Source: Candidatus Aphodenecus pullistercoris (GTDB lineage Bacteria > Spirochaetota > Spirochaetia > Sphaerochaetales > Sphaerochaetaceae). Taken from it: DNA of 54,876 bases. The stretch covers positions 1-54,876 of the forward strand of contig JADIMU010000057.1 of assembly GCA_017694495.1 (NCBI GenBank), in the 5' to 3' direction. The position numbers and the translations under genes were made by a program. Position 1 is the stretch's first letter; each line of letters starts with the position of its first letter. The notes under the pieces are model-generated. The model worked only from the letters and a program-made list of their open reading frames with translations, searched no databases and was not told the DNA's origin. Below, piece after piece: positions 3,433-21,718 of the stretch.

Positions 3433-5991
3433 ATGAAAGTTGTAGTCATCGGAGGAGTGGCGGCTGGAACCAAGGCCGCGGCCAAGATCAAAAGGGAGGA
3501 CAGGTCCGCCCAGGTCCGGATTCTGACCAAGGGACATGACATCTCATACGCAGGCTGTGGCCTGCCATACTACATCGGCGGCATGATCGGGGAGCGTGGG
3601 GACCTCATAGTCAACACGTCTGAGAAGTTCAGCGCCCTGACGGGTGCCGAGGTGCTCACGGACGCTGAGGTGACAGCCGTCGACTTCGCAAAGAAGACTG
3701 TGACATACCAGCATGAGGGCTCTTCAGCCGTCGAGCCCTACGACAGGCTCGTCATCGCGACGGGGGCCACTCCCATCGTGCCTCCAGTGCCCGGTGTGGA
3801 ACTTGATGGCGTCTTCACGCTCAGGACCCCCGACGACGCTGAGGCGATCAGGGCCTGGGCGAGGCGTGATGAGGTCAGGCGCGCAGTCGTCGTGGGCGCC
3901 GGCTTCATCGGTCTGGAAGTGGCCGAGAACCTGATGGCGGAGGGCCTTGACGTGACTGTGGTCGACATGGCCGACCAGATCATGCCACGCGCCTTCGACT
4001 TCGAGATGGCCAATCTGGCCCGACGCCAGCTCGAGAAGGCCTCGATGAAGGTCTCGACATCGACCAGACTTGAGGCGCTTGAAGGCGATGCGGCGGTGAG
4101 GAGCGTGCGCACCGACAAGGGCGTCCTGCCCGCCGACCTCGTCATCCTGGCCCTCGGTGTCCGTCCGGCCACAGCCTTCCTTGAGGGCAGTGGTCTTGCG
4201 ATGGACAAGGGCGCCATCATCGTGGACGAGCACCTTGCCACGAACATCGAGGACGTCTGGGCTGCGGGAGACTGCGCTCTGGTGAGGAACCGCCTGACGG
4301 GCGCTTCCCTCTACTCGGCGATGGGATCCAGCGCCAACCTCGAGGCCCGTGTCCTGGCCAAGGTCGTCGCCGGAAGGAATGCGAGCTATCCTGGTGCCCT
4401 GGGAACAGGTGTCGTGAAGCTGCTTGATGGCCTGAACGCGGCACGTTGCGGTCTGACGGAGAACGAGGCCGTGAAGACCGGCTACGAGGTCGTCACCGTC
4501 GTTGCGGTCGAGGACGACAAGGCCCACTACTACAGCGGCTCGTCGAACTTCATCATGAAGCTCATCGCCGAGGCCAAGACGCACCGCATCCTCGGCTTCC
4601 AGGTCCTGGGCGCAGGTGCCGTCGACAAGGTCAACGACATCGCCGTCGTGGCGGTAAGCCAGGGTATGAGGGTGGAGGACTTCGACTCGATGGACTTCTC
4701 CTACGCTCCGCCTTTCTCGACTGCCATCTCGCCATTCGTCCAGCTTTGCAACGTGCTTGAGAACAAGATCCTCGGCGAGCTCGAGACGATGACTCCGGCG
4801 GAGTACCTGAAGACCCGTGGCCGCGGCTGGCGCGTCGTAGACGTCCTGCCTGAGCGTACGATTCCCGGAGCCTTCTGGGTCGATCTTGGCAAGGTCGACG
4901 GCCCCATCGAAGGACTTGGAAAGGACGAGAAGCTCCTTCTCGTGTGCAACCGCGGCAAGCGGGGCTACTTCCTCCAGAACAGGCTGAAGGCGGCAGGCTA
5001 CACTGCCACCCGTGTGCTTGAGGGTGGCGTCACCGTCAACGACGTCAGGGTCGACATCGGATCGGTCATCCCGCCGGACGAAGTGAAGAGGGTGAAGGGC
5101 CTGGGCTGTCTACAGGACAAGCGCCAGCCTGACCACTTCAATGTGCGTGTGATCACGCGCAACGGAAAGATCACCGCCGCCGAGCAGAAGTCGATCGCAG
5201 AGGCGGCCGAACGCTTCGGCAGCGGAGAGGTCACGATGACGACCCGCCTGACGCTGGAGATCCAGGGCGTCAAGTACAGTGACATCGAGCCCCTGATCGC
5301 CTTCCTCAAACAGCGGGGTCTGGAGACAGGAGGCACAGGCAGCAAGGTCCGCCCCGTCGTCTCGTGCAAGGGCACGACATGCCAGTATGGCCTGATCGAC
5401 ACCTTCGACCTGTCAGAGAAGCTCCATACGATCTTCTACGAGGGCTGGCACAACATCGCGCTGCCGCACAAGTTCAAGATCGCCGTCGGCGGCTGCCCGA
5501 ACAACTGCGTCAAGCCCAGCCTGAACGACATCGGCATCATAGGACAGCGCCTGATCCGCTTCGAGCTCGACAAGTGCCGCGGATGCAAGGTGTGCCAGGT
5601 CGAGCGCTCCTGCCCGATAAAGACGGCCCATGTCGTCGACGGGAAGCTCGTGGCGGATGAGTGCAACCACTGTGGACGCTGTCTTGACAAGTGTCCCTTC
5701 GGCGTCACTTCCGACTATGTGACGGGTTATGCCATCTATGTCGGCGGACGCTGGGGCAAGAAGGTCGAGATGGGCAAGAGGCTCTCGCGCATCCTCATGA
5801 GCGAGGACGAGGTCATAGCGACAGTAGAGCGTGCCATCCTCCTCTTCAGGGACGAGGGCGTGAGCGGCGAGCGCTTCGCCGATACGGTCAACCGCCTTGG
5901 TCTGGACTACGTCGAGGACAAGCTCTTCAACGGCAAGATTGACAAGTCGCGCATCCTGGAGAAGAATGTCATCGGCGGGGCTACCTGCTGA
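3433..5991 (+). CDS. Fusion: CoA-disulfide-reductase-like flavoprotein + rhodanese + sirohaem sulfite/nitrite reductase + 2x[4Fe-4S]
   Basis: 852 residues with four modules. (1) About 1-450: FAD/NAD(P)H-dependent disulfide oxidoreductase of the CoA-disulfide reductase/NADH oxidase type, with an FAD-binding glycine-rich start (GGVAAGTKAA) and the single redox cysteine C42 in SYAGCGLPYY. (2) About 455-545: rhodanese domain with active-site loop VCNRGKRG, C505. (3) About 565-710: sirohaem/4Fe-4S reductase domain with C645-x4-C650 and C688-x3-C692 (GGCPNNCVKP). (4) 712-765: two 4Fe-4S motifs, C715-x2-C718-x2-C721-x5-C727-P and C744-x2-C747-x2-C750-x3-C754-P. No signal peptide, so cytoplasmic. The modules suggest NAD(P)H electrons passing via FAD and clusters to sirohaem, with sulfane sulfur handled by the rhodanese: a persulfide, polysulfide or sulfite reductase is the likeliest role. 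An AGAGGC-type ribosome site precedes the ATG. Confidence 0.88.
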   Translation: MKVVVIGGVAAGTKAAAKIKREDRSAQVRILTKGHDISYAGCGLPYYIGGMIGERGDLIVNTSEKFSALTGAEVLTDAEVTAVDFAKKTVTYQHEGSSAVEPYDRLVIATGATPIVPPVPGVELDGVFTLRTPDDAEAIRAWARRDEVRRAVVVGAGFIGLEVAENLMAEGLDVTVVDMADQIMPRAFDFEMANLARRQLEKASMKVSTSTRLEALEGDAAVRSVRTDKGVLPADLVILALGVRPATAFLEGSGLAMDKGAIIVDEHLATNIEDVWAAGDCALVRNRLTGASLYSAMGSSANLEARVLAKVVAGRNASYPGALGTGVVKLLDGLNAARCGLTENEAVKTGYEVVTVVAVEDDKAHYYSGSSNFIMKLIAEAKTHRILGFQVLGAGAVDKVNDIAVVAVSQGMRVEDFDSMDFSYAPPFSTAISPFVQLCNVLENKILGELETMTPAEYLKTRGRGWRVVDVLPERTIPGAFWVDLGKVDGPIEGLGKDEKLLLVCNRGKRGYFLQNRLKAAGYTATRVLEGGVTVNDVRVDIGSVIPPDEVKRVKGLGCLQDKRQPDHFNVRVITRNGKITAAEQKSIAEAAERFGSGEVTMTTRLTLEIQGVKYSDIEPLIAFLKQRGLETGGTGSKVRPVVSCKGTTCQYGLIDTFDLSEKLHTIFYEGWHNIALPHKFKIAVGGCPNNCVKPSLNDIGIIGQRLIRFELDKCRGCKVCQVERSCPIKTAHVVDGKLVADECNHCGRCLDKCPFGVTSDYVTGYAIYVGGRWGKKVEMGKRLSRILMSEDEVIATVERAILLFRDEGVSGERFADTVNRLGLDYVEDKLFNGKIDKSRILEKNVIGGATC

Positions 5992-6075: not shown

Positions 6076-6915
6076 TTGTTCAGAAGGCTCTTTCTATCTG
6101 CATGCATGCTGGCCGCATGCATCCTCTCCCTCCATGCGATGGATGCGGCCTGCCTCAACTCATCCATAGCCGAGCTGTGGGCCCTTGCCGGAGGCCAGGT
6201 CGCCGTGACGGTCCAGGAGGCTGTCGACAGGGGGGTCGCCGATGATGGGGCCATCCTCGTCGATACGGCCAGCGGCCGGAACATCAACAGCGAAGTGCTC
6301 ATCGCATCCGGATGCGACCTCGTTCTGGGCTCCGTCGACACGGCGAGCCATGTCGCGCTCAAGGGCCTGATGGACAGTCTGGGCATCAGGATGGTCCTCA
6401 TCAGACAGGATTCCTTCAGCGACTTCCTCTCCATCTTTAGACAGCTCACATCGCTCACGGGTCGTGAGGACCTCTGGCTTGCCCACGGCCCTGCCCAGGG
6501 CGAGGAGATCGCCTCCATCGTCGATTCGTGCACTTCGCAGGACAGGAGGCCCCGCGTCCTCTTCGTCAGAGCAGGCAGCGCCTTCTCCTCGGTGCGCGCC
6601 AAGGGCAGCGGCGACCACTTCGCCGCAGGAATCATAGAGGACCTGGGCGGCATCAACGTCGCCGACGAGTACGGTATGCTGACCGAGAGCCTCTCGCTCG
6701 AGGCCATGCTCAGAGCCGACATCGACAAGATCCTGATCGTCGCCCAGGGGGACGAGGAGGCGAGCCGCGCCTATATGGAGGACCTCCTCTGCCAGCCGGG
6801 CTGGAGGGACCTCGGCGCCGAAGTCGTCTTCCTTCCCAAGGACCTCTTCCACTTCAAGCCGAACGGCCGCTGGAGCGAGGCCTACCGTGTCATGGCCGAG
6901 GCGCTTTATGGCTGA
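6076..6915 (+). CDS. Periplasmic substrate-binding protein of a BtuF/FhuD-type ABC importer
   Basis: 279 residues. A basic MFRR start and hydrophobic segment to about residue 22 form an export signal; LAAC at 12-15 could serve as a lipobox, making it a possible lipoprotein. The body follows the type III binding-protein plan used for cobalamin, haem and siderophores: two lobes joined by a long helix, and an NVADEYGMLTESLSLE stretch resembling the usual 'G..N.a......v..e.l' motif. The start is TTG (AAGGAT upstream); the next in-frame ATG at 6106 would cut off the basic start. It begins the importer operon, with the permease overlapping by eight bases. No cobalamin or other riboswitch was recognised upstream, so the ligand is open. 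Confidence 0.82.
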   Translation: MFRRLFLSACMLAACILSLHAMDAACLNSSIAELWALAGGQVAVTVQEAVDRGVADDGAILVDTASGRNINSEVLIASGCDLVLGSVDTASHVALKGLMDSLGIRMVLIRQDSFSDFLSIFRQLTSLTGREDLWLAHGPAQGEEIASIVDSCTSQDRRPRVLFVRAGSAFSSVRAKGSGDHFAAGIIEDLGGINVADEYGMLTESLSLEAMLRADIDKILIVAQGDEEASRAYMEDLLCQPGWRDLGAEVVFLPKDLFHFKPNGRWSEAYRVMAEALYG

Positions 6916-7882
6916 GGGGAGGAAGCTCGCCATCCCCATCCTGGGCCTCGTTCTGGTCCTGACTGTGCTGCTGTGCCTGGCAGTGGGAAGCACTGCGCTC
7001 GACCCTGTCCTCGTCTTCAGCCCAGGATCCGTCGACAACATCATCTTCCTCTCCGTCCGCCTGCCCCGTGTCGTTGCCGCCGCTACGGCCGGCATGGCCT
7101 TCGCCATCGCTGGCGTACTGCTCCAGGCGGCCAGCGGCAACAGTCTGGCAAGTCCGAACATCATAGGCGTCAACTCCGGAGCGGGCTTCGCCGTCCTCCT
7201 GTGCATGTGCCTTCTGCCGCGCCACTTCCTCCTCCTGCCAGTGGCAGCCTTCGCCGGAGCCCTGCTTGCGACGGGGGCCGTCTTCCTCATCTCCTCGCTG
7301 ACGAGCCGTCTGTCCTCGGCTTCGTCCCTCATCCTCTCGGGTGTCGCCGTCAATGCCTTCTTCAACGCCCTGACAAGCACGCTCTCCTCATTGAGACCAG
7401 ACCTCATGGGTTCCTACAGCGCCTTCTCCATAGGTGGCTTTGCCGGCATACAGACGCGTACGCTCGTCGAGCCCGTCATCCTCATCCTCGCATCAGGGGC
7501 CCTGGCCCTGTCGTGTGGCCCCCTGGTCGACGTCATCAGTCTGGGTGACGAGCTCGCCTCATCCCTGGGCTACCGGCCCAGCAGGCTCCGTGTGGGCATG
7601 TCGGCGCTCGCCGCCTTCCTTGCCGCATGCGCAGTGAGCTATGCAGGACTCCTGGGCTTCGTCGGTCTCGTCACACCCCATCTGGCCCGCTTCCTCACTG
7701 GCGGCGGGGGGAGGCGTACACTGGCCGCAAGTGCCTTGGCCGGAGCCATCCTCGTCCTGCTTTCCGACCTCTTGGCGCGCACTCTCGTCTCTCCCGGCGA
7801 GCTGCCTGCCGGCGTCTTCATGGCGGCCATAGGCGTGCCCTTCCTCATCATCCTTCTGACAAGGAGGTCGGGCCATGCTTGA
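6908..7882 (+). CDS. FecCD/BtuC-family ABC transporter permease
   Basis: 324 residues and about nine to ten membrane helices, matching the FecCD family of iron-siderophore, haem and cobalamin importers. Diagnostic stretches include SVRLPRVVAAATAGMAFAIA (about 43-62) and GLLGFVGLVTPHLAR (about 246-260), the cytoplasmic loop that contacts the ATPase. I chose ATG 6908 rather than an upstream GTG at 6887 because it begins right before the first helix and overlaps the binding-protein stop by eight bases, as do the next two genes. Works with the binding protein before it and the ATPase after it. Confidence 0.92.
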   Translation: MAEGRKLAIPILGLVLVLTVLLCLAVGSTALDPVLVFSPGSVDNIIFLSVRLPRVVAAATAGMAFAIAGVLLQAASGNSLASPNIIGVNSGAGFAVLLCMCLLPRHFLLLPVAAFAGALLATGAVFLISSLTSRLSSASSLILSGVAVNAFFNALTSTLSSLRPDLMGSYSAFSIGGFAGIQTRTLVEPVILILASGALALSCGPLVDVISLGDELASSLGYRPSRLRVGMSALAAFLAACAVSYAGLLGFVGLVTPHLARFLTGGGGRRTLAASALAGAILVLLSDLLARTLVSPGELPAGVFMAAIGVPFLIILLTRRSGHA

Positions 7883-8606
7883 AGTCGACAGGCTCTGTGT
7901 GGACGTGGGTGGCAGAAGGCTGCTAGATGAGGTCTCGTTCCGCCTGGAGGAGGGGAGGATCTACGCCCTCATCGGCGCGAACGGGAGCGGAAAGACCAGT
8001 CTGATCCGGGCCCTGACCTCCTACTACCCGCGCTATGGGGGAAGCATAAGGTTCGACGGCAAGGAGCTCAGGGACTGCAGGCGGAAGGAGAGGGAGAGCC
8101 TCCATGCCCTTCTGCCGCAGGTCCTGCCCCAGCTGGACAGCACGCTCGATACAATGCTGAGCGGGGGCTCCCCGATCCTCGGACAGCTTGGCCTGGAAAA
8201 GCTTGCACTCCGGCGCATCTCCAGCCTCTCGGGAGGTGAGAGGGAGCTTTCCTTCCTCGCCATGATGCTCTCACGCGAGGCGCGTCTCTACTGCCTCGAC
8301 GAGGCCGAGGCCAATCTGGACGCGCGCTGTCGGCGTCTGGTCGAGAATGCGATGCGCTCCCTGATGGCGGAAGGCAAGATGGTCCTCGCGTCCTTCCACG
8401 ACCTGGACCGTGCCATGAGGCTGAGCGATGGTCTCCTTGTGATGGACGCCGGGCGCCTCGTCTTCGCAGGAGATGGTGCCTCCTTCGCTTCCAGCGGCCT
8501 CGCTGAGCGCCTCTTCGGCCTCAGCCGGAGGCGCTTCACCTCAGCCGAGGGCGAGCTTGTCGAGCTCTTCGTCGAAGTGGCGGGCGAAGATCCGGGCGAA
8601 GTCTGA
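7875..8606 (+). CDS. ABC transporter ATP-binding protein (FepC/BtuD type)
   Basis: 243 residues. Contains Walker A (GANGSGKTS, about 34-42), the ABC signature LSGGERE (about 118-124), Walker B with D-loop (LYCLDEAEANLD) and the switch histidine in ASFHDLD. It energises import through the FecCD permease whose gene it overlaps by eight bases. The signature replaces the usual Q/R with E but is otherwise normal. The 3' end overlaps the 3' end of the convergent chelatase gene by 66 bases. Confidence 0.93.
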   Translation: MLEVDRLCVDVGGRRLLDEVSFRLEEGRIYALIGANGSGKTSLIRALTSYYPRYGGSIRFDGKELRDCRRKERESLHALLPQVLPQLDSTLDTMLSGGSPILGQLGLEKLALRRISSLSGGERELSFLAMMLSREARLYCLDEAEANLDARCRRLVENAMRSLMAEGKMVLASFHDLDRAMRLSDGLLVMDAGRLVFAGDGASFASSGLAERLFGLSRRRFTSAEGELVELFVEVAGEDPGEV

Positions 8607-9191
8607 GGACAGACAGGCGAGACCTTTCCGGTTCACGGCGACGCTGTGCCCAAGGCTCCTGAGATGGTCCGCGACCAGACCTTCCACCTCTTTGCGGGCA
8701 TGGTGGCCGTAGCCGAGGAGGAAGGGGGTGAGCGTCACATTGCGGCTGTCCACGGACAGGGACTTCCAGCATAGCTGCTCCTTCAGCGTCACAAGGACCA
8801 TGTCGTCCCTGAGGTGGTGCTGGAGCATGTCGAGCTCTTCGATGTGGCCGCCTTCCTCCCCATGGGCCACGAGTATGTGGCAGTGTCCTTCCTTCTCCTC
8901 AAGGGATGATGACAGAATCTGTGCGACCTGATGCGCGTCATCTTCGCAGGAGAGCAGTGGAGCCGAGACGGGCTTGCCCGATGAGGCCAGGCGCCTCCAG
9001 AGGCCACCCTTCTGGATGAGGAGGGGCAGTATGACGGTCCCTTCGCCATCCGCCTCGAGCGCCTCCTGGATGTGGGCCGTCCGCCAGGGGCAGGGGAGGA
9101 GGGCGCCGACGGAGGTGGCGAGCCTGTCCACTTCCTGCTGCGCCTGGCTGTCCCGGCTTTCGAATGCGACGATGAGGGCCTTTGGTTCCAT
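8541..9191 (-). CDS. CbiK-like sirohydrochlorin metal chelatase
   Basis: 216 residues, somewhat shorter than the roughly 260 of anaerobic cobaltochelatase CbiK. Two family motifs are visible: VAHGEEGGH around H110, matching the GHG segment with the first metal-binding histidine, and LTPFLLGYGHHA around H163/H164, matching the 'PFMLVAGDHA' segment with the second. The family inserts Co2+ (or Fe2+) into sirohydrochlorin or related tetrapyrroles. No signal peptide is seen, so it is probably cytoplasmic. It is convergent with the ABC importer and close to the sirohaem-dependent fusion, so iron insertion for sirohaem or metal handling of an imported tetrapyrrole are both possible. There is no Shine-Dalgarno; a promoter abuts the ATG. 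Confidence 0.72.
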   Translation of the reverse strand: MEPKALIVAFESRDSQAQQEVDRLATSVGALLPCPWRTAHIQEALEADGEGTVILPLLIQKGGLWRRLASSGKPVSAPLLSCEDDAHQVAQILSSSLEEKEGHCHILVAHGEEGGHIEELDMLQHHLRDDMVLVTLKEQLCWKSLSVDSRNVTLTPFLLGYGHHARKEVEGLVADHLRSLGHSVAVNRKGLACLSSDFARIFARHFDEELDKLALG

Positions 9192-11161: not shown

Positions 11162-11223
11162 CCACCCGCCTTGTGGCCAGAAGACGGCTTTTAGGCTATC
11201 CTTGGTGCAAGGAGGAGCCGCCT

Positions 11224-12678
11224 ATGGACATCGCGAGACAGGCCAAGGAAGTCAGCCTCTCGGTGCTTCCCATCGCACTGCTGTCCATCATCCTGTCGCT
11301 TGCGCTGGGAATAATGGACTGGGGTGAGCTGGGAGCCTTCATGCTGTCGTGCGTCCTGGTCATCGTCGGACTCACCATCTTCCTGACCGGAGTGGATGTA
11401 GGCCTCCTGCCTGTGGGCGGCAGGCTTGGAACCGCCATGACGCGCTCACACAACATCCTGATACTGGTCCTCTCTGCCTTCCTGCTTGGGGCGATCATCA
11501 CGATACCCGAGCCCGATGTCCAGGTCCTGGCGACGCAGGTGGCCGAAGTCGATCCCTCCATGCCCACACAGGCCCTCACCTGGGCCATAGCCATAGGCGT
11601 GGGCATCTTCCTCGCCATCTCGCTGGTCCGTACCGTCCTGGGCTGGTCGATGAAGCTCATCCTGGCACTCAGCTACACAGCCATCTTCATCCTCGCATTC
11701 TTCAACAACGACTTCCTCGTCTCCGTCGCCTTCGACTCCGGCGGCGCTACGACAGGTCCCCTGTCGGTCCCCTTCATCATGGCCCTGGGCATGGGCGTCG
11801 CCTCGCTGAGGCATGGTGACGAGGAGGCGAGCTTCGGCTACGTCGCCCTCTCATCGGTCGGCCCAGTCATGGCCGTCCTGGTCCTGGGACTCTTCTTCAG
11901 CTCGTCCTCTGCACTCGCGCCCGACACCAGTGCACAGGCGGCCCTCTCCCTGGGCAGACTCTTCCAGACGAAGGCGAGCGAGGTGGGCACATCGCTGCTG
12001 CCTCTCGTCGCAGTCCTGGTCCTGTGCCAGATCCTCTTCCTGCGCATGCCGCGCATCGAGGCCACCAGGGTCGCCGTCGGCATCGTGTGGGCCTACATCG
12101 GCATCGTCGTCTTCTTCACGGGCGTCGAGTACTCCTTCTCATCCGTCGCCCGCCAGCTGGGAGCCGCCCTCATGGCCTCCAGTCCCTGGCTGCTGTACGT
12201 GTGCGGCTTCGTCTTCGGCCTGTGCGTCGTCCTCGCTGAGCCTGCCGTCCTGGTCCTGACAGGCCAGGTCGAGGAGGCGAGCAACGGCCGCATCCCGCGC
12301 CGCCTCATGCTCGCGGCCCTGGCCCTGGGCGTGGGACTCGCCGTGGTCCTGGCCCTTGTGAGGACAGTCAACGACCTTTCGATCTGGTACTTCATACTCC
12401 CGGGCTATGCCCTGATCATGCTTGCGATGCTGGCCACGCCGGGCCTCTTCTCCGCCATAGCCTTCGACTCCGGCGGGGTCGCCACGGGGCCGATGAGCTC
12501 GACCTTCCTGCTGCCCCTGGCCATTGGAGCGGCCAGCGGCAACGCCGCGCTTGGCCTGACCGCATCCTTCGGAATGATCGCCATGATAGCCATGATGCCC
12601 ATCCTCCTCGTGGAGGTCCTGGGCATCTGGTACGCCCACCAGGAGAGGAAGTCGAGGCGACAGGAGGGGAAGAAATGA
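11224..12678 (+). CDS. DUF1538 family membrane protein (two repeats)
   Basis: 484 residues, almost entirely hydrophobic, with about 12-14 membrane helices in two DUF1538 repeats. Each repeat carries the same signature, FDSGGATTGPLS (about 174-185) and FDSGGVATGPMS (about 416-427), which probably faces a central pathway; transport is likely but the substrate is unknown. ATG 11224 is preceded by AAGGAGGAGC at good spacing, so I reject the longer in-frame start at 11173. The stop overlaps the start of a PII-like regulator (ATGA), suggesting direct control of this protein by the regulator in the manner of AmtB and GlnK. Confidence 0.85.
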   Translation: MDIARQAKEVSLSVLPIALLSIILSLALGIMDWGELGAFMLSCVLVIVGLTIFLTGVDVGLLPVGGRLGTAMTRSHNILILVLSAFLLGAIITIPEPDVQVLATQVAEVDPSMPTQALTWAIAIGVGIFLAISLVRTVLGWSMKLILALSYTAIFILAFFNNDFLVSVAFDSGGATTGPLSVPFIMALGMGVASLRHGDEEASFGYVALSSVGPVMAVLVLGLFFSSSSALAPDTSAQAALSLGRLFQTKASEVGTSLLPLVAVLVLCQILFLRMPRIEATRVAVGIVWAYIGIVVFFTGVEYSFSSVARQLGAALMASSPWLLYVCGFVFGLCVVLAEPAVLVLTGQVEEASNGRIPRRLMLAALALGVGLAVVLALVRTVNDLSIWYFILPGYALIMLAMLATPGLFSAIAFDSGGVATGPMSSTFLLPLAIGAASGNAALGLTASFGMIAMIAMMPILLVEVLGIWYAHQERKSRRQEGKK

Positions 12679-13265
12679 GACAGATGCTCACTGCGATAGT
12701 AAGACGTGGCCAGTGCAGGCCCGTCATGGAGGCCGCAAGGAGGGCGGGAGCCCCCGGAGGCACCATCTTCTACGCCCGGGGCACGGCCTCGAGCACGATA
12801 CTTGCCGCCCTCGGCCTTGGGGACGGCTACAAGGACGTCCTCGTCAGCTTCATGGACGAGGAGGTCCTGGACAAGGCCATCAGAGAGATCCGGGGCGGCC
12901 ATGCCAAGGGCATGCTGCTCGCCTCGCCATGCATCGAAGGTGATGAGGAGGTTCCTATGGATTGCAAGTGGCGGCTGGTCGAAGTCATCTGCGAGGAGGG
13001 CTACAGCGAGGACATAATGGCGGTTGCGCGCAAGGCCGGGGCCAAGGGTGGCACAGTCGTCAACGCCCACGGAACGAGCACTCCTGACGACGTGAAGTTC
13101 TTCGGTACCCCGATCGTGCCCGAGAAGGAGATCCTCATGGTCGTCATGGAGGAGGACAAGGCCGACGCGGTCGTCAAGGCGATCGAAGGCATGGAGGTCC
13201 TGCGCCAGAAGGGCCGCGCCGTCATGTTCACCCTGCCTGTGAGCCGCTTCGTCAACCTTTCCTGA
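12675..13265 (+). CDS. Tandem PII-like (nitrogen regulator family) protein
   Basis: 196 residues made of two PII-like ferredoxin folds: about 1-95 with GAPGGTIFYARGTAS, and about 100-196 with GAKGGTVVNAHGTST. Each shows the beta-alpha-beta pattern and ends with a strand like ILMVVMEED. PII proteins are trimers of one domain; two domains in one chain would allow a trimer of tandem units or a pseudo-symmetric assembly. The canonical T-loop tyrosine/RG motif is not visible, so uridylylation is unlikely. The gene overlaps the DUF1538 gene by four bases. It probably senses a nucleotide and gates that membrane protein (inference). Its 3' end overlaps the convergent LysR gene by 14 bases. Confidence 0.85.
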   Translation: MRQMLTAIVRRGQCRPVMEAARRAGAPGGTIFYARGTASSTILAALGLGDGYKDVLVSFMDEEVLDKAIREIRGGHAKGMLLASPCIEGDEEVPMDCKWRLVEVICEEGYSEDIMAVARKAGAKGGTVVNAHGTSTPDDVKFFGTPIVPEKEILMVVMEEDKADAVVKAIEGMEVLRQKGRAVMFTLPVSRFVNLS

Positions 13266-21232: not shown

Positions 21233-21262
21233 TTGACCAGAGGCTTCATGTTGCCACATGCT
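21233..21262 (+). promoter_or_regulatory. Promoter of vsr, predicted leaderless
   Basis: TTGACC (21233-21238), 18-base spacer, CATGCT (21257-21262), then six bases to ATG 21269; no Shine-Dalgarno. Confidence 0.45.
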
Positions 21263-21268
21263 TCAGCC

Positions 21269-21718
21269 ATGGATGTCATGAGCGCCGCCGACAGGCACAG
21301 GACGATGGCTGCGATCCGGGGTAGGGATACTGGACCTGAGGTCTTCGTGCGCCATCTGCTGTGGCATCATGGGCTGCGCTACAGGACCTCTGTACGCCGC
21401 CTGCCAGGTTCGCCGGACATCTACCTTGCGAAGTACTCCACTGCGATCTTCATCAATGGCTGCTTCTGGCATGGCCACGAAGGCTGCCGCTACTACAGAG
21501 TGCCCAAGAGCAACACCGACTTCTGGGTGGCGAAAATCACACGCAACAGGGAGCGGGACGGAGAGACGAGGCGGCGCCTTGAGGAGGCTGGAGTCAGACA
21601 GCTCGTCATCTGGGAGTGCACAGTCAGGGCGATGAGGAAGGACGAGGAGAAATGCGATGAGGTCCTTGCCGCCATTCTCAACTTCCTCCACAGCGACCAG
21701 CACTACCTCGAACTCTAG
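21269..21718 (+). CDS. vsr: Very short patch repair (Vsr) DNA mismatch endonuclease
   Basis: 149 residues, the usual size. Vsr nicks DNA at T:G mismatches arising from deamination of 5-methylcytosine. Diagnostic features: MAAIRGRDTGPEVFVRHLL near the N-terminus, LPGSPDIYLAKYSTAIFING with the catalytic Asp of SPDI, then CFWHGHEGCRYYRVPKSNTDFW with zinc-binding Cys/His residues. ATG 21269 gives the standard N-terminus. No cytosine methyltransferase gene is adjacent, although vsr almost always neighbours one; the upstream gap contains transposon-like repeats. The partner may be elsewhere or lost. Confidence 0.92.
   Translation: MDVMSAADRHRTMAAIRGRDTGPEVFVRHLLWHHGLRYRTSVRRLPGSPDIYLAKYSTAIFINGCFWHGHEGCRYYRVPKSNTDFWVAKITRNRERDGETRRRLEEAGVRQLVIWECTVRAMRKDEEKCDEVLAAILNFLHSDQHYLEL

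Follow-up and report, generated by a model that had tools for sequence, protein, structure and literature searches.

A CoA-disulfide reductase, rhodanese and sirohaem reductase fusion beside a putative tetrapyrrole importer: a candidate sirohaem-scavenging sulfur-reduction operon in gut bacteria

Organization of the locus and modules of the fusion

The window, that is the whole stretch of 54,876 nucleotides that was analysed, is one contig of the 2.07 Mb draft genome of Candidatus Aphodenecus pullistercoris. Its forward strand carries a gene for a fusion reductase (3433..5991) followed by the three genes of an ABC importer: a substrate-binding protein (Peripla_BP_2, 6076..6915) with a haem/B12-like fold, a FecCD-type permease (6887..7882; PF01032, 3.5e-74) and an ATPase (7875..8606; PF00005, 8.9e-23). 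A gene for a CbiK-like sirohydrochlorin chelatase lies on the reverse strand (8541..9191), convergent with the ATPase gene. Promoter and terminator scans gave nothing helpful above shuffled sequences. Upstream of the operon (186-1303), one protein with both rubredoxin and rubrerythrin-type rubredoxin domains is encoded, and a ferredoxin gene comes next.

The fusion ORF starts at an ATG and runs uninterrupted for 852 residues. This, together with its conservation (see below), bears out the single chain of the original prediction. The ORF, Pfam and NCBIfam searches, alignment and a structural model delineate a CoA-persulfide/disulfide reductase (CoADR), a rhodanese and a putative sirohaem sulfite reductase into which two [4Fe-4S] clusters are inserted. 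The CoADR module (residues 1-448, 3433..4776) is supported by Pfam and Foldseek. It includes Pyr_redox_2 (PF07992, 1-285) and Pyr_redox_dim (PF02852, 334-432) and thus FAD, NAD(P) and dimerisation domains, together with an active cysteine of the SYAxCGLPY type (C42) and Y424. In the rhodanese module (residues 449-540, 4777..5052), the PF00581 match covers residues 468-533 (26.1 bits against a cut-off of 22.2) and the active loop begins at C505. The C-terminal part matches the PF03460/PF01077 family pair, with NIR_SIR_ferr at 562-626 and NIR_SIR at 636-826. The NIR_SIR_ferr half-domain (5116..5310) holds R572 and R605, while the sirohaem/[4Fe-4S] core (residues 627-705, 5311..5547) carries R640, C645-x4-C650, K680, K682 and C688-x3-C692. 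The ferredoxin domain (residues 706-760, 5548..5712) contributes two further [4Fe-4S] motifs (C715/718/721/727 and C744/747/750/754). Pfam therefore supports the three domain types read originally (CoADR-like, rhodanese and sirohaem reductase), and the positions given for C42, C505, C645, C650, C688 and C692 are correct. The 4Fe-4S motifs had been counted as a fourth module. However, the Fer4 match (708-755) sits within the NIR_SIR match, so that the fusion has three modules and not four. A ferredoxin is likewise inserted in the sirohaem domain of Fsr, of DsrA and other Dsr proteins and of AsrC.

The predicted structure has a mean pLDDT of 87, but its modest pTM (0.64) and a poorly predicted region around residues 635-650 make it unsuited to judging contacts between modules. 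Its superposition on the E. faecalis CoAPR (8a56) has a TM-score, normalised to the target length, of 0.94. Residues 1-538 share their fold, C42, Y424, the dimerisation domain and the rhodanese cysteine with the CoADR-rhodanese reductases (E. faecalis CoAPR, B. anthracis CoADR-RHD 3icr/3ict and A. fulgidus NPSR 6pfz), whereas the sirohaem reductase domain of 310 residues is additional. The two NCBIfam CoADR equivalog models score the fusion below their cut-offs (401 vs 458 and 390 vs 579 bits).

Among solved structures, those nearest to the C-terminal part by profile search are F420-dependent sulfite reductases (Fsr; 7npa, 7np8). Fsr and Dsr-like proteins including AsrC resemble the fusion in their ferredoxin-bearing sirohaem domain, their R,R,R,K,K pocket and the coupling of a flavin oxidase to sirohaem in a single chain. 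The fusion differs from Fsr in two respects: the N-terminal FrhB F420H2 oxidase is missing and replaced by the CoADR-rhodanese electron input, and the first cysteine pair is spaced CX4C rather than CX5C. It is 24-26% identical to AsrC and falls well below the AsrC model (TIGR02912, 98 vs 324 bits). The fusion is a new architecture built from known modules; no description or characterisation of it was found in open-licence papers.

Distribution and conservation of the fusion

The nearest named records belong to Spirochaetales, including Candidatus Ornithospirochaeta. A full-length copy is present in 12 of the 15 other genomes of the genus (59-83% identity), and chance or mis-assembly can be dismissed on this ground. 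When 84,980 species genomes were searched with the C-terminal half, 504 encoded relatives were returned, of which the best 80 loci were examined. Full-length fusions are encoded at 75 of these; a contig end truncates four others, and the remaining one is frame-split. Their hosts are spirochaetes, Lachnospiraceae, Oscillospiraceae and Holdemania. The module order is common in gut Firmicutes and spirochaetes, but the literature searched gave no characterised example. The possibility of a one-off chimera was rejected in view of the conservation in the genus and among the best 80 loci. In a plasmid search the matches were confined to the CoADR-rhodanese half and no record covered 80% of the query.

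In the 43 aligned copies C42, C505 and all 12 Fe-S cysteines are invariant. Conservation is highest in the sirohaem core (85% identity, against 62% for the flavoprotein). The C-x4-C spacing, which the original prediction had rightly singled out as departing from C-x5-C, means that the standard CX5CXnCX3C cluster motif does not match any of these copies: all 43 have CX4C. The same spacing occurs in two differently built relatives (59-60% identity; loci L133 and L138), the first of which is a stand-alone sirohaem reductase of 306 residues. Both the invariance and the sharing with L133 and L138 indicate that CX4C is a fixed mark of the subfamily rather than an error and that, judging from the sequences, the subfamily also exists unfused. 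At L138 (7265-8629), a redox domain with a C-GCAxxG-C-C motif is fused to a sirohaem reductase of the CX4C type, which represents a further architecture of this subfamily.

In one relative of the same family (genome G030), the copy comprises 556 residues and ends immediately behind the rhodanese (67% identity), a possible case of loss of the sirohaem module. The region (L016/L023, 769-3071) also holds, just upstream of this shorter copy, a gene that by eye resembles an IS200/IS605-type transposase (769-1191).

Predicted activity of the fusion

The sulfite-binding residues of Fsr are R355, R423, K460 and K462, with R388 as an additional mark of the assimilatory type (PMC10229431). A profile alignment places R355, R388, R423, K460 and K462 of Fsr opposite R572, R605, R640, K680 and K682 of the fusion, all five of which are invariant in the 43 copies. 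From these assimilatory-type pocket residues, the sirohaem half is predicted to reduce sulfite.

The PF01077 and PF03460 domain family is shared with nitrite reductases, and nitrite is an additional substrate of many sulfite reductases (PMC10229431), which could point to a NirB-type enzyme involved in ammonia formation or nitrite detoxification. However, the NirB model scores the fusion far below its cut-off (TIGR02374, 234 vs 578 bits), the closest solved sirohaem domain is that of a sulfite reductase, the pocket is of the sulfite type and neither rhodanese nor CoADR has an obvious role with nitrite. This reading is highly improbable, and the pocket residues and model scores led us to reject the identification of the fusion as a nitrite reductase.

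The N-terminal half would receive electrons from NAD(P)H on its FAD and handle sulfane sulfur, a persulfide on C505 being passed on as CoA persulfide and reduced to sulfide at C42. It is 31-36% identical to solved persulfide reductases and retains their active cysteines. These features are compatible with the original view of a self-contained sulfur reductase, in which persulfide or polysulfide is reduced and the sirohaem domain assists in the reduction of carrier-bound sulfur. The idea of a self-contained single-chain enzyme is plausible. However, persulfide reduction needs no sirohaem: relatives lacking the sirohaem domain exist, among them the 67% identical copy of G030, and the fusion carries all five sulfite-type pocket residues. 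A persulfide or polysulfide reductase with an assisting sirohaem domain is therefore unlikely. Since substrate-bound sulfur would occupy the CoADR-rhodanese half alone, a substrate that involves both halves, such as thiosulfate, fits better.

The rhodanese loop is consistent with such a substrate. It reads C-x-[RK]-G-[KR]-[RK] in all 43 fusions; against a loop of the form CA[RK]GKRG there, CoADR-rhodanese proteins without a sirohaem domain have CGVGLRA, CGVGFRA or CKISLRG. Its unusually cationic character suits an anionic donor such as thiosulfate, a substrate proposed from module logic and this one loop. Thiosulfate would use every module: the rhodanese would split it into persulfide and sulfite, and each half would reduce one product, giving two sulfides. 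In the C-terminal half, electrons would travel through the two [4Fe-4S] clusters to the sirohaem-[4Fe-4S] centre, where sulfite would be reduced to sulfide. The unproven step is the transfer from the CoADR FAD to an Fe-S cluster. It counts against this explanation because CoADR-type enzymes normally carry out two-electron thiol chemistry. Overall, the fusion is probably an enzyme that reduces sulfite or thiosulfate with NAD(P)H rather than one restricted to persulfide. A comparable route from thiosulfate to sulfide was proposed in Halanaerobium via a separate rhodanese and AsrABC (PMC5497025), there encoded by separate genes and here by one chain.

A candidate sirohaem importer in a genus predicted not to make sirohaem

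The original prediction made no mention of the adjacent importer and chelatase or of the missing sirohaem synthesis, which together are the most novel part of the system. Of the best 80 loci, 46 have the importer adjoining the fusion, some contigs ending too early to tell; it lies 3' of the fusion in nearly all spirochaete loci and in part of those from Firmicutes. A gene for a clear CbiK (E 4e-30) immediately follows the fusion and precedes the binding-protein gene in Holdemania and some Oscillospiraceae. The substrate of CbiK enzymes is sirohydrochlorin, which is iron-free sirohaem. The chelatase of the window is a divergent member of this group. It exceeds the Pfam CbiK family cut-off (29.6 vs 26.2 bits), matches the family of CbiK and other sirohydrochlorin chelatases (1qgo, 2xvx) by profile (E 1e-26) and shares their two ligand histidines, H110 and H164, which are invariant in the aligned chelatase copies. 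The NCBIfam SiroCoChCbiK equivalog (400 bits) does not match the window protein and gives 82 and 158 bits for Firmicute copies.

In genome searches that were positive in control genomes, none of the 16 genomes of the genus yielded HemC (PF01379) or SUMT (TIGR01469), although in drafts a missing HemC may reflect an assembly gap. Lacking both, the genus should not make sirohaem; nor does it make a cobalamin ring of its own, and the expected metal of the chelatase is iron.

Across 50 fusion-bearing genomes, the importer lies beside the fusion in 22 that lack HemC and in none that has it. When the binding protein is counted anywhere in the genome, it is found in 30 of 31 genomes without HemC and in 0 of 19 with HemC (Fisher 7e-13). 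On the fusion tree HemC changes nine times and the binding protein eight times. Of five supported independent pairs, HemC and the binding protein are opposite in four and tied in one (phylogeny-corrected p 0.125), a test that is not significant on its own because supported pairs are too few. Within the genus the binding protein occurs in 13/13 genomes with the fusion and 0/3 without it. These three genomes rule out, for the genus, that the importer simply occurs in any genome devoid of HemC. It is also absent from G030, which has only the CoADR-rhodanese half. G030 and 19 of the other 20 genomes of the same family have no binding-protein match below 1e-20, the one exception being weak (1.2e-24). 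The binding protein thus follows sirohaem enzymes and not auxotrophy in general.

The association extends beyond the fusion. In a survey of 299 genomes of one family, 30 carry the binding protein. A HemC match was found in 2 (one weak) of 29 importer-bearing genomes, namely 28 of the surveyed family and one other (G046), against 19 of 30 controls. A sirohaem gene (the fusion, AsrC, small sirohaem reductases, CysG, SirC alone or CbiK) lies within about 6 kb of the importer in 20 of 27 readable importer loci. The importer is beside CysG at L119 and L120, where CysG is over its curated cut-off, beside SirC at L133, L143 and L152, and beside CbiK at L062 and L149. At L128 (2830-9406) the order is asrA-asrB-asrC-binding protein-permease-ATPase-CbiK half-NirC-like channel. 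With its half-size CbiK and its NirC/FNT-type channel, this is likely a complete sirohaem-scavenging sulfite-reduction operon in another family. The other seven of the 27 loci are without a nearby sirohaem gene; among them is L139, which lies near the corrinoid genes CobQ/CobD. Some HemC-lacking genomes keep CysG. Such hosts would need an earlier precursor, for example uroporphyrinogen, and the imported molecule may therefore differ between hosts. A SirC-SUMT-HemD triple fusion of 698 residues (L142, 1334-3427) adjoins the importer in a HemC-lacking genome, so that one must ask which earlier precursor it receives.

The importer shares a class III binding protein, a FecCD permease and an ATPase with the IsdE, HutB/BhuT and BtuFCD importers. 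However, it scores below both curated haem and cobalamin cut-offs, is linked to sirohaem genes and lacks a cobalamin riboswitch. The best fold matches of the modelled binding protein are IsdE (haem, Z 25.2) and then BtuF (Z 23.2), scores so close that the fold does not discriminate between haem, sirohaem and B12.

The haem-type fold would also be in keeping with haem-iron scavenging, in which the CbiK-like protein strips iron from imported haem and the reductase contributes to breakdown or reduction of the tetrapyrrole; FetB (9b86), a haem-binding protein of CbiK-like type, closely matches the chelatase family. This is very improbable: Firmicutes with HemC hold the same reductase without the importer, so that the reductase needs no imported tetrapyrrole as substrate, and the CysG and SirC of such operons work on precursors of sirohaem, not on haem.

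The match with BtuF could instead indicate an ordinary cobalamin (BtuFCD) system that lies beside the reductase by chance. Loss of HemC abolishes B12 as well as sirohaem synthesis, and the anticorrelation with HemC would then reflect B12 auxotrophy. A distant homologue of the binding protein (L129, E 1.3e-49) is encoded within a cobalamin cluster, and the position of L139 near corrinoid genes is a reason for caution on sirohaem import. Cobalamin riboswitches are frequent, not universal, at cobalamin importers. One was detected at the binding protein of L129, which serves as a positive control, but none in the window, at the 14 sirohaem-linked loci scanned or at L139. Moreover, the binding protein tracks the sirohaem enzyme among genus genomes that all lack HemC, and most readable loci place the importer with a sirohaem reductase, CysG, SirC or CbiK. 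The cobalamin explanation is accordingly rather improbable.

We therefore favour, with a probability of about 0.6, a sirohaem-scavenging sulfur-reduction operon. The architecture, the invariant catalytic residues, the gene linkage, the lack of HemC and SUMT and the pattern of co-occurrence are all read directly from sequence, whereas we infer what the enzyme reduces, how its electrons travel and which ligand is transported. Import is proposed because the host lacks HemC and SUMT: the binding protein, permease and ATPase would take up sirohaem or iron-free sirohydrochlorin, and the CbiK-like chelatase would insert iron if the free base were imported. More generally, it is rather likely that a dedicated importer of sirohaem or a precursor, supplied by neighbours or diet, allows anaerobic gut bacteria without tetrapyrrole synthesis to keep the fusion, AsrABC or small sirohaem reductases.

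Sirohaem is generally regarded as a cofactor that each cell makes itself. No published sirohaem importer was found in the open-licence papers searched, and the importer would represent a new function for a known transporter class. If this is correct, sirohaem is a shared gut nutrient, sulfide production by many gut anaerobes hinges on cofactor cross-feeding, and these organisms would escape genome surveys in which sirohaem synthesis genes are taken as the sign of sulfite reduction. In addition, the fusion, as an NAD(P)H enzyme in a single chain, is a candidate for an unrecognised and widespread sulfide route in gut Firmicutes and spirochaetes.

Two other regions of the window were identified by eye. 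A membrane protein gene is followed by one for a short protein with two similar halves, resembling a P-II-type regulator (11173-13265), and a further ORF (21233-21718) resembles a Vsr-type very-short-patch-repair endonuclease.
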